Source of the DNA: Peribacillus simplex
Lineage (GTDB): Bacteria > Bacillota > Bacilli > Bacillales > DSM-1321
Length of the DNA: 64,000 bases
Direction of reading: 5' to 3'
Assembly: GCF_001578185.1 (NCBI RefSeq)
Contig: NZ_CP011008.1
Span: forward strand, 1,392,001 to 1,456,000
Position numbers and translations under genes: made by a program. The notes below the pieces were generated by a model that made no database searches, was not told the origin of the DNA, and saw only the letters and a list, made by a program, of their open reading frames with translations. Of the stretch, positions 7,532 to 11,767 are shown one piece after another (the stretch's first letter is position 1; every line of letters begins with the position of its first letter).

Positions 7532-7567
7532 AAAAGGATGCCGCCCTACTACGGGCGACATCCTTTT
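7532..7567. terminator. Bidirectional terminator between ABC operon and cold-shock gene
   Basis: Stem AAAAGGATG-c-CGCCC pairs with GGGCG-a-CATCCTTTT around a 6-base loop. The A/T tails make it work on both strands for the two convergent units. Confidence 0.85.
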
Positions 7568-7602: not shown

Positions 7603-7806
7603 TTAAAGTTTTACGACGTTTTTAGCCTGAGGTCCGCGGTTTCCTTCTTCGATCTCGAATTCAACCTCTTGACCTTCATCAAGGCTCTTGAAACCCTCTC
7701 CCTGAATGGCGGAAAAATGTACGAATACATCATCTTCGTTTGGTACCTCGATAAATCCAAATCCTTTGTCGCTATTGAACCATTTTACTTTACCTGTTAC
7801 TGTCAT
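7603..7806 (-). CDS. Cold-shock protein (CspA/CspB family RNA chaperone)
   Basis: Single cold-shock domain of 67 residues that binds single-stranded RNA and DNA and melts RNA structure in the cold. RNP1 (KGFGFIEV) and RNP2 (VFVHFSAI) are intact, as is the C-terminal [12 protein letters not shown]. The ATG at 7806 follows a TAGGAGG site. It resembles B. subtilis CspB and CspD about equally, so I give no symbol. The leader is long and carries a striking hairpin (see the inverted repeat at 7874-7940), which suggests post-transcriptional control. Confidence 0.96.
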
Positions 7807-7873
7807 TCGATGAATCCTCCTAAAAAGTTAAAAAATATTAATGGTGATGATTTTACCTGGATGGGAAAATCAA

Positions 7874-7940
7874 TTCACACATTATCAAGCATCCACATTC
7901 CAGTTAAAGTATCATACGAAGATGCTTGATAATGTGTGAA
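7874..7940 (-). repeat. 20-bp perfect inverted repeat in the csp leader
   Basis: Arms TTCACACATTATCAAGCATC (7874-7893) and its exact reverse complement (7921-7940) flank a 27-base spacer. In the csp transcript this would form a 20-bp hairpin about 70 bases upstream of the start codon. There is no T-run after it, so it is not a simple terminator. It could be an RNA thermosensor, an RNase III target, or a relic of a small inverted-repeat element. Confidence 0.85.
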
Positions 7941-7992
7941 AGCCTAAAGTAAAAATTAACCCACTAACCTCTGGAGCAATTTCCAGTTTTTT

Positions 7993-8015
7993 AGTATATA
8001 CCCACCTTTATAAAG
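7993..8015 (-). promoter_or_regulatory. Possible csp promoter
   Basis: On the minus strand a TATACT -10 (7993-7998) is preceded 17 bases earlier by a weak TTTATC. It would give a leader of about 180 bases containing the inverted repeat. The -35 match is poor, so this is tentative. Confidence 0.35.
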
Positions 8016-8669: not shown

Positions 8670-10244
8670 ATGACTACATTAAAAGACGAGGTTCACTCTC
8701 GAAGGACCTTCGCAATCATCTCTCACCCGGATGCCGGGAAAACGACTTTAACAGAAAAATTATTGCTGTTTGGTGGTGCGATTCGTGATGCCGGAACAGT
8801 TAAAGCAAGAAAAACAGGGAAATATGCTACAAGTGACTGGATGGAGATAGAGAAGCAACGGGGAATTTCCGTTACATCCTCAGTCATGCAATTTGATTAT
8901 GATGATTTCCGTGTTAATATTCTCGATACACCAGGTCACCAAGACTTCAGTGAAGACACATATCGTACACTGATGGCTGTTGATAGCGCCGTGATGATCA
9001 TCGACTCGGCAAAAGGGATCGAGGATCAGACGGTTAAATTATTCAAAGTATGCCGGATGAGGGGTATCCCGATTTTCACTTTTATCAATAAAATGGACCG
9101 ACAAGGTAAAATGCCGCTCGAATTGCTTGCCGAACTTGAAGAGGTATTGGGGATTGAAACATACCCGATGAACTGGCCGATTGGAATGGGAAAAGACTTC
9201 GTGGGTATTTACGATAGGTTCAATAATCGGATTGAACAATTCAAAACTGAAGGGGATGAGCGTTTCCTTCCGTTGAATGACGAAGGTGAACTCGAAGTGG
9301 ATCATAAACTTAAGGATTCCCAGTTATATGAGCAAACTTTGGAAGAAATCATGCTGTTGACGGAAGCGGGTAACCAATTCTCTGAAGAAAACATTGCGAA
9401 TGGAAAACTTAGTCCCGTATTTTTCGGAAGTGCTTTAACGACATTCGGTGTTCAGACGTTTTTGGATGCTTATCTGAAATTTGCACCAGCCCCACAAGCA
9501 CGGATGACAACATCAGGTGAAATGAGTCCTGTCAGTAATGATTTTTCCGGCTTCATTTTCAAGATACAGGCGAATATGAATCCGAAACACCGTGATCGGA
9601 TTGCTTTCCTTCGTATCTGCTCCGGTAAATTCGAGCGTGGAATGAGTGTCAACTTGAGCAGGACAGGGAAACCAATCAACCTTTCTTCATCTACTCAATT
9701 CATGGCAGATGATCGGAACACCGTAAACGAAGCCGTAAGCGGGGATATCATCGGTTTATATGATACCGGGAACTACCAAATCGGCGATACGATTACAACA
9801 AGCAAAGACATGTTCCAGTTTGAAAGGCTACCGCAGTTTACACCGGAACTATTCATGAGGGTAACAGCTAAAAACGTCATGAAACAGAAACATTTCCATA
9901 AAGGAATTAACCAACTTGTACAAGAAGGGGCAATTCAGCTCTTCAAAACGGTTCGGATGGAAGAATACCTGCTTGGTGCGGTTGGGCAACTTCAATTTGA
10001 AGTATTCGAGCATCGAATGAGGAATGAGTACAATGTTGAAGTCTTGATGGAGCGCATGGGCAGTAAGATCACACGTTGGGCTGAAGATGAAAAGCTGGAT
10101 GAAAATCTTCATAGCACAAGAAGCATTCTTGTTAAAGACCGGTTTGATAAATATGCATTTTTATTTGAAAACGAATTTGCACTTCGTTGGTTCCAAGATA
10201 AAAATCCTGACGTGGAATTATATAATCCAATGGATTTGAAATAA
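8670..10244 (+). CDS. prfC: Peptide chain release factor 3 (RF3)
   Basis: GTPase that recycles RF1/RF2 from the ribosome after peptide release. The 524-aa protein is full length for the family. GTPase motifs are all present: G1 SHPDAGKTT (residues 18-26), G2 region with [11 protein letters not shown]3 DTPGH, and G4 NKMD. The beta-barrel domain II and the RF3 C-terminal domain ([18 protein letters not shown]) follow. The [14 protein letters not shown] stretch distinguishes RF3 from EF-G. The ATG has AAAGGA upstream. Its native terminator hairpin (10252-10270) has been split from its T-run by an insertion sequence. Confidence 0.97.
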
Positions 10245-10383: not shown

Positions 10384-11683
10384 TTAGGCCATTTTTGGAC
10401 CTCGCCATGTCCAATTGGCCATCTTCTTTAAATTAATGGCAGCGTAAGTAAGCATCGCCTGCATCGACAATTTTTTAAGTACCCTTAAAGTTGTCCAACG
10501 CATACCATGCTTTTCTTTTGCATCTGCGAATACACACTCAATCGTTTCTTTACGTTTCGCATATATAGTTTTTACATCTTGATGATGACGCAGATGATCT
10601 GCTTCTTCCACATGTGTTTGCCAAATATGCCGTGTCACCACTTTTTGATGGTCTTTGCTTTCTGTACACTGAGATAAAAATGAGCATGTCGCACAAGTGT
10701 GTTTGGGTGATTTATACTCGCGATAGCCCTCTTTATTGGTTGTTGAGTACTTTAATAGCTCTCCCGAAGGACAAAGGTAACCATCAAAATGTTCATCGTA
10801 TACATAGTCCTGTTTGCGGAAAAATCCTTCTTTGGTGCGAGGACGTGTATAAGGTAAAGCCGGTATGATTTCTTTGTTAAATAGGTAGCTTGTAATCGCT
10901 GGTGTTTTATAAGCTGCATCTGCGGCAACGGCTTCCGGTTTTCCAACTTTCTCAATCACTTGTTCAACTAGTGGCTCTAAGATCTGACTGTCATGTATAT
11001 TTCCAGGTGTTACAATCGTTCCCAATACAAAACCGTTGCGGTCTGCGGCCGCGTGGAATGAATAGGCAAACTGTTTTGTTCGTTCATCTTTCACATAGTA
11101 GCCACTCTCAGAATCCGTTGTTTTCCATGGTTTTCACGATCTTGATTGATTTCTTCTTGAAGACGCCCTTGATACGCTCGTGTTTCTTTACGAACGATTT
11201 TCTTTTCAAATTTCCGTTTATTCGCACTGGCTTTCACATGTGTGGAATCCACGAAAACGTGTTCAGCACTTATTAACTTTTTATTAGCAGCTGTCATTAA
11301 AATGCGATAGAAAATCTGTTCAAACAGGTCTGTATCTTTAAAGCGTCGCTCATAATTTTTCCCGAACGTGGAGTAGGAGGTACTTTATCATGGAAACCAT
11401 AGCCTAAGAACCAACGGTAAGCCATATTGGTTTCAACTTCTTCAATCGTTTTACGCATGGAACGAATACCGAAGGTATATTGAATCAATGTCAGTTTAAC
11501 TAAAATAACTGGATCAATACTTGGGCGTCCTACCTCTGAATACATCTCTTTCACCAAGTCATAAATGAAAGTGAAGTCAATGGCAGCCTCCATTTTACGA
11601 ACCAAATGGTTCGGTGGCACCAGTTGATCTAACGTAATCATTTCAAGTTGATCTCGCTGAATAGAATCATGTTTAGAAAGCAT
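10384..11683 (-). pseudogene. Broken IS1182-type transposase
   Basis: Three consecutive frames together make a near-complete DDE transposase. The N-terminal part runs from the ATG at 11683 (GAGGTG site 6 bases upstream) to GYGFHDKVP near 11380. There the frame shifts; the next frame reads STFGKNYERRFKDTDLFEQ. A second break near 11110-11130 jumps from INQDRENHGK to DSESGYYVKDERTKQ, where about 25 residues seem to be missing. The C-terminal part (MKDERTKQFAYSFHAAADR to MANWTWRG) is intact and includes the ADAAYKTP and ECVFADAKEKHGMR motifs. The single-base loss plus deletion means no active enzyme. Confidence 0.88.
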
Positions 11684-11767
11684 CCTCATCACCTCAAGTT
11701 TTAATACTTCTATTTTAAAAACAAAAATGACTCCAGGCAAAAGTGTTTATCTAAAAGGTAAGACAAA

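Follow-up and report, generated by a model that had tools for sequence, protein, structure and literature searches.

A perfect hairpin ahead of a cold-shock gene of Peribacillus simplex: a conserved leader element of Bacilli, probably of the Staphylococcus aureus cspA kind

The hairpin and its gene

What does a perfect 20-bp hairpin do in front of a cold-shock gene? The question is raised by the window, the whole 64,000-nucleotide stretch of the Peribacillus simplex genome analyzed here (NZ_CP011008.1, positions 1,392,001 to 1,456,000), in which a csp gene is preceded by two arms of 20 nt that are 100% complementary, separated by a spacer of 27 nt and spanning 67 bp overall (Table 1). Since csp starts at 7806 on the minus strand, the arms stand at -68 to -87 and -115 to -134, and their coordinates confirm the perfect inverted repeat that the initial annotation had described 68-134 nt before the gene. 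By calculation, the right arm (A') can take as its partner either the left arm (A) or, if freed, the segment at 7839-7847. Given the terminator-like hairpin that follows it, csp is probably monocistronic. Elsewhere on the minus strand of the window, at 10384-11740, lies what we take to be a transposase-like gene split over three frames, beside prfC (8670-10244).

Table 1. Features of the csp locus, in window coordinates
Feature	Position	Strand	Basis
Probable -10 box TATACT	7993-7998	-	Read from sequence; absent from promoter-scan list
Left arm, first copy A	7921-7940	-	Inverted repeat, fold, alignments
Right arm A', core UAAUGUGUGAA at 7884-7874	7874-7893	-	Fold, covariation
Predicted RNase III cut, 3' strand; new 5' end U at 7884 (-78)	7884-7885	-	Position homology with S. 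aureus G-53/U-52 (analogy)
Small inner hairpin UGAUUUU / AAAAUCA	7848-7872	-	Folds; helix 2 of the covariation analysis
Downstream partner UCACCAUUA, diverged third copy of left-arm core	7839-7847	-	Alignment, calculated pairing
Shine-Dalgarno AGGAGG	7816-7821	-	Read from sequence, alignment
csp, 67-aa cold-shock domain protein	7603-7806	-	ORF; Pfam PF00313, 105.2 bits
Terminator-like hairpin 3' of csp	7532-7567	-	Terminator scan

The stem reaches -32.8 kcal/mol (z = -7.7), a stability equaled in none of 200 dinucleotide shuffles. Its 20 bp make it the longest perfect inverted repeat of the window for loops of 3-60 nt, the runner-up having 17, and in five versions of the window shuffled in 500-base blocks the maximum was 10-11 bp, with none of 14 bp or more. 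The judgment that such a stem is unlikely to have arisen by chance therefore stands.

The transcript that would carry the hairpin probably begins upstream of it. From the TATACT box we infer a transcription start near 7986 and hence a leader of about 180 nt in the window. The earlier proposal of a -10 box further up, with a leader of that length, is made likely by TATACT (7998-7993) and by the upstream promoters of relatives; in the window the box is weak, and the promoter scan did not list it. Clear promoters stand 5' of the hairpin in part of the relatives' leaders: promoter-like pairs scoring at least 10 of 12 occur there in 45 of 148 leaders, against 6, scattered, in shuffles, and in 40 of those 45 leaders they end 26-39 nt before the left arm. 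In the window, TATACT lies 52 nt from the left arm, compared with mostly 26-39 nt in relatives. The 148 leaders, which also serve below, derive from 272 csp leaders; a script found in each a right arm and a stable partner, and identical ones were dropped.

Distribution and action at the RNA level

Thirty orthologous loci were fetched from the 36 genomes of the genus, and 29 of them have the hairpin, which measures 49-72 nt as a whole as its loop varies and lies 60-73 nt from the csp start. A model built from these 29 loci (R1) matches 32 of the 36 genus genomes and 39 of the 43 family genomes, with a single place in each, and farther out at least 32 of 397 genomes of the order and at least 69 of 398 genomes of the class. 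With a second model, built from 48 leaders (R2), matches were obtained in at least 101 of the 397 order, 160 of the 398 class and 9 of 199 phylum genomes; four of the phylum matches lie outside the class, each with a csp gene. The class, order and phylum counts are lower bounds because these searches used strict filters and scored few candidates per genome, at most 18 (9-11 in class and order).

The gene behind the match was checked at 184 fetched loci, a set in which some places occur twice and outside which most class, order and phylum matches lie; L295 and L296 were left out as opposite-strand matches of places already checked. A csp gene is present at 181 of the 184, including one frameshifted remnant. 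Its start adjoins the match in 122 of the 123 loci with a set match position, and L120 shows the adjacency by separate inspection. Twenty weak matches gave csp at 18 loci and ydjO at two. Starting from the genes, 42 of 80 named csp loci have a match on the csp strand at E <= 0.05, among them loci of Paenibacillus, Lysinibacillus, Metabacillus, Lederbergia, Kurthia, Planococcus and Macrococcus; the other 38 have none on that strand at that threshold. Seven of 30 ydjO loci fetched by family have an upstream match on the gene's strand.

At the remaining three of the 184 loci (L100, L319, L327), where csp is missing, the same hairpin precedes ydjO, the Pfam 'Cold-inducible protein YdjO' (PF14169). 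The frameshifted csp remnant of L099 sits between the hairpin and a ydjO-like frame. Besides csp, this leader may govern ydjO as well.

That the perfect inverted repeat of 67 bp is a dispersed repeat or what is left of a small transposon, as its form might suggest, is exceedingly improbable in view of this distribution. The 15-nt arm core has its sole exact occurrence in the 5.5-Mb genome at this locus, and the single match with one mismatch lies 335 kb away, with no csp there. The element occupies one place per family genome and, at the fetched loci, stands before csp or, in three cases, ydjO. Several unrelated copies were looked for in the genome and in the family and were not found; the transposon origin that had been considered is thereby refuted.

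The match strand and the stem itself point to a function as RNA. On the csp strand, the non-Watson-Crick cells of the 20-bp stem (P1) comprise 53 G.U against 8 A.C in the genus alignment (A1) and 90 against 17 in the class-wide alignment (A4), as expected if the csp-strand RNA folds; folding of the opposite strand would reverse the ratio. In the window, R1 scores 90.4 bits on the csp strand versus 56.9 bits on the opposite one, and at two loci (L096, L131) it scores slightly higher on the opposite strand.

Compensatory change in relatives, which had been proposed as a check, is poor among close relatives and visible at the level of the class. Since the stem varies little in sequence within the genus, only 3 of the 20 pairs there have changes on both sides, a value that 184 of 500 shuffles reached. 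For the class-wide alignment, 48 of 57 listed leaders were retained, with near-duplicates, L099 and L100 dropped. There, 94.3% of P1 cells are paired, with both-side changes in 9 of the 20 pairs, and 74.8% of the cells of the inner hairpin are paired. For the two helices together, the count of doubly changed cells was 140 (53.3 in shuffles) and the covariation score 0.344 (0.195 shuffled), neither value being attained in 500 shuffles, and both measures being inflated by the kinship of the sequences. The number of pairs with both-side change (14, against 12.3 shuffled; 68 of 500 as high) and the number of further pair types (39, against 37.3; 122 of 500 as high) remain at shuffle level, so that class-wide covariation exceeds shuffles on three of five measures.

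The same data bear on the idea that the arms act as DNA, either by binding a regulator or with the left arm serving as a -35 box for a start inside the hairpin. The arm sequence is indeed conserved, and the best match of the promoter scan, TTCACA-18-TATGAT at 7940-7911, agrees at 10 of 12 positions. The scan returned four sites in all, compared with 2.9 +/- 1.6 in shuffles, and better promoters stand upstream of the hairpin in relatives, as described above. The loop varies from 11 to 40 nt across the 148 leaders, which argues against a dimeric DNA-binding protein, and inspection by eye showed that the second hexamer has no aligned counterpart in the loops of other clades. The G.U asymmetry is not expected of DNA. 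An operator or promoter was accordingly rejected on the weak promoter-scan excess, the asymmetry and the variable spacing, and we consider it very improbable.

One genus genome (G013; L028 / L300) has a csp leader without the hairpin in which the promoter-like TATATAAT at the -10 region and the downstream element are retained. This leader is a ready-made natural control.

A third copy of the arm and the question of temperature

In many leaders, the left-arm core recurs as CAUAUU(A) between the hairpin and the Shine-Dalgarno sequence; near-invariant columns are few in that region, and the C, the A and one T of this copy belong to them. A perfect 7-nt partner of the right-arm core, G.U allowed, is found in 106 of 148 leaders versus 25.1 expected from mononucleotide shuffling, and a partner with Watson-Crick pairs only in 27 versus 1.3; the 7-nt partner ends 20-33 nt before the start (5th-95th percentile). 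When each of the 148 leaders was compared singly with dinucleotide shuffles, the arm paired significantly with the region downstream (p <= 0.05) in only 31%. In the window, the third copy has diverged to CACCAUUA and pairs with a one-base bulge, UCACCAUUA with UAAUGUGUGA giving nine calculated pairs and one bulged base. At least 22 leaders with the CACCAUUA form, including those of the window's clade, fail the strict 7-nt test, as counted among the 25 of the 42 exceptions that were listed.

Folding calculations indicate when this copy is used. When the left arm was removed before folding, the right arm re-paired downstream in all eight example leaders. For the window, the best downstream pair has a probability below 0.001 in the intact leader and of 0.96-1.0 at 5-45 C if the RNA starts at 7884. 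A small stable 5' hairpin is calculated to form once the left arm is gone, with a downstream helix that stops before the Shine-Dalgarno sequence. In the folding model, the right arm A' thus takes the downstream copy only when the left arm has gone. We therefore regard the hairpin, with fair though by no means full confidence in the explanation as a whole, as an RNA element that acts in cis, is conserved in the csp leaders of Bacilli and follows the order A - A' - A.

Variants of this arrangement were also seen. In several genomes (L318, L322-L326), a longer insert separates the right arm from a GCAUAUA- or ACAUAUC-like copy. In L321, a csp leader has a very different arm sequence (GUUCAAAAAGUCACC...) ahead of GCAUAUU; its stem is perhaps independent or replaced.

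A conserved A - A' - A order is also what a bistable leader needs, and the main rival is accordingly a cold thermosensor of the Listeria monocytogenes CspA kind, possibly in a kinetic or protein-assisted form, in which a distal hairpin leaving the Shine-Dalgarno sequence free in the cold would give way to a proximal one blocking it in the warm, with no cleavage. In the passages of reviews that describe it (Ignatov et al., 2020, via PMC8079631 and PMC8155936), the Listeria system resembles the present one in its csp leader of similar length, its distal hairpin and its alternative fold; one of them describes a switch in the 101-nt leader of Listeria cspA in which the distal hairpin forms at temperatures up to 30 C (PMC8079631), and the other cites thermoswitches for S. 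aureus cspB and cspC (PMC8155936). According to the same descriptions, the Listeria exchange is driven by temperature and covers the Shine-Dalgarno sequence, whereas the window stem is too stable for this at equilibrium and the downstream helix of its processed form ends before the Shine-Dalgarno sequence. Equilibrium folding gave the long stem of the window a mean pair probability of 0.93-0.997 at 5-75 C. Among 50 leaders, every third of the 148, the long stem kept at least 0.72 and the downstream pairing at most 0.09 at 10, 37 and 45 C, so that an exchange of distal and Shine-Dalgarno hairpins by temperature was seen neither in the window at 5-75 C nor in these leaders by this calculation. 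The RNA thermoswitch of the initial annotation, if it is to work by melting, finds no support in the window, where the stem is calculated to stay at least 93% paired over that range. Lioliou et al. (2012, PMC3386247) moreover report that cold shock does not regulate how S. aureus cspA is processed. A Listeria-like thermosensor hence appears unlikely, if less so than the other alternatives. As the long stem is too stable to melt, an exchange of partners needs removal of the left arm, and a nuclease fits better than temperature.

Relation to known csp leaders and a possible mechanism

The best reading, in our opinion somewhat more probable than all others together, is that the window hairpin is a stability leader processed by RNase III, as in S. 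aureus cspA. Lioliou et al. (2012, PMC3386247) describe a cspA leader of 113 nt, in which a few unpaired bases are followed by an almost perfect helix of 32 bp. RNase III cuts it at G-53 and A-88, and the processed message begins at U-52 with a smaller stable hairpin, shows better 30S binding and has a half-life of more than 16 min, compared with less than 2.5 min without RNase III. The same source reports that the leader is conserved in Staphylococcus and Macrococcus and that a similar hairpin precedes cspB of L. monocytogenes.

The cspA leaders of S. nepalensis, M. brunensis and M. lamae contain the left arm, the right arm GUAAUAUG and the copy GCAUAUUG. The three-part motif (left arm, right arm UAAURUG, downstream copy) was recognized by eye in L205, L206, L208 and L303, where R2 scores weakly (25.8 bits and E 0.032 with filters off for S. 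nepalensis, 30.2-34.1 bits for Macrococcus). The U that opens UAAUAUGC stands at -54 in S. nepalensis, -51 in S. simulans and -48 in M. brunensis, L206 being left out of this comparison as it has no exact copy of the searched string. These positions are near the U-52 reported for S. aureus, and a cut there would therefore place the right-arm core at the 5' end of the message, where it could pair with the copy. In S. simulans, the left arm was not found within 150 nt, and by eye none of the leader parts is present upstream of L211 and L212, which are csp paralogues of S. nepalensis and S. shinii, respectively, or of a Jeotgalicoccus csp (L210).

The likeness to S. aureus cspA thus includes a csp family gene directly downstream, a long near-perfect hairpin that in the window would also lie near the 5' end, given the proposed start, and a small 5' hairpin after the cut, reported for S. 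aureus and expected by calculation for the window. The right-arm core UAAUAUG and the downstream copy CAUAUU were seen in S. nepalensis and Macrococcus, S. aureus itself being represented here by the published description. The two leaders differ in length, with 113 nt in S. aureus against the presumed 180 nt or so in the window. An inner hairpin separates the right arm from the copy in the window and is absent from the Staphylococcus and Macrococcus leaders seen, and the third copy of the window is CACCAUUA instead of the CAUAUU of S. nepalensis and Macrococcus. Of the functions first envisaged, that of a stability element cut by RNase III is favored by the G.U asymmetry, the covariation, the three-part order in S. 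nepalensis and Macrococcus and the reported S. aureus cut site; cleavage in the window would follow by analogy. The same analogy would extend to stabilization and better ribosome binding.

The mechanism that we propose begins with a transcript initiated about 180 nt before the csp start, in which A would pair first with A' to form a long double helix. RNase III would cut this helix, in the window between 7885 and 7884 if the site corresponds to that of S. aureus cspA. The released 3' part of A' would be the new 5' end of the message and would swap to the second A copy (7839-7847), upstream of the Shine-Dalgarno sequence. The resulting compact 5'-terminal hairpin should shield the message from a 5' exonuclease (RNase J) while leaving the ribosome site open, and much stable csp message would be retained. 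In such a cut-and-exchange, the nuclease would turn a buried A' strand into a protective 5' cap. Because A' would have to match two partners in turn, its sequence would be constrained, which would account for a conservation of the stem that an ordinary RNase III site does not show.

A transcription attenuator would account for the same hairpin in another manner: the stem, with the U-rich stretch behind it, would stop RNA polymerase unless Csp melts it, thereby establishing a feedback. The class alignment has a T-rich stretch with near-invariant T columns 3' of the right arm, and Csps of E. coli are antiterminators according to a review passage and a reference title. Against this, the base of the stem is A/U-rich and poor for an intrinsic terminator, the U-run of the window is broken (AUUGAUUUUCCC), and the G+C-rich stem with a direct U-run that defines an intrinsic terminator is not found for this hairpin in the window. 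The terminator scan, limited to loops of 3-8 nt, did not list the P1 stem. In S. aureus lacking RNase III, cspAL accumulates at full length, as the cspA study states (PMC3386247). Attenuation is therefore improbable, and we retain the RNase III-processed leader.

Escherichia coli cspA, to which the leader had been likened, shares with the window a regulatory leader of a csp gene, whereas no homology to the E. coli leader was found in the window. The only strong Rfam match of the window, the cspA thermoregulator RF01766, scores 54.1 bits, below the cut-off of 78, and the coding sequence alone accounts for 53.2 bits. Among ten further loci, two exceed the cut-off (L168, 83.7 bits; L083, 78.9 bits), and leaving out the leader raises their scores to 93.3 and 90.3 bits, respectively. 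An E. coli cspA-type leader was thus rejected, since the score derives from the coding sequence and stays below the cut-off in the window. In the Rfam scans of the window and these ten loci, no family matched the leader.

As for B. subtilis, a related bacterium, cspB and cspC likewise have regulatory 5' UTRs, which carry cold-shock boxes according to the part of the source seen (PMC8307031). The window hairpin is probably a new member of the S. aureus cspA kind of leader. Among open-licence papers, no title or opening of an abstract was found to describe a Bacilli-wide element of this kind; studies of S. aureus cspB/cspC, of the autoregulation of S. aureus CspA and of Listeria cspA lay outside that literature, and we make no claim that the element is unpublished.

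A broader proposal, to which we give a little less than even weight, is that the hairpin represents an RNA class of Bacilli, outside Rfam by the present scans, that controls csp, or ydjO where csp is lost, by cut-and-exchange of A'. If this is true, the stability of csp messages in a large part of Bacilli would rest on one conserved RNA device, the working of which is known experimentally, in the literature consulted, from S. aureus cspA, and it would provide a clear case of gene activation by RNase III. It would also supply a covariance model for the recognition of further members and exact predicted 5' ends (7884 in the window), and the three-part design would make the switch testable by single-strand swaps.

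The genome to which the window belongs holds another kind of csp leader as well. Five other csp copies were found in it, with a different leader and no hairpin; most of them (L002-L006) have the leader type AATTATTTTTGTTCGG, then ATAGTAATA. In three genus genomes without the hairpin (G005, G025, G032), the four places fetched have only csp copies of the other kind. Copy number of the hairpin itself varies farther out: three genomes (G434, G591, G601) have five to seven matches each, both strands counted, compared with the single copy in the window genome, and csp follows at each of the 13 places checked in them.
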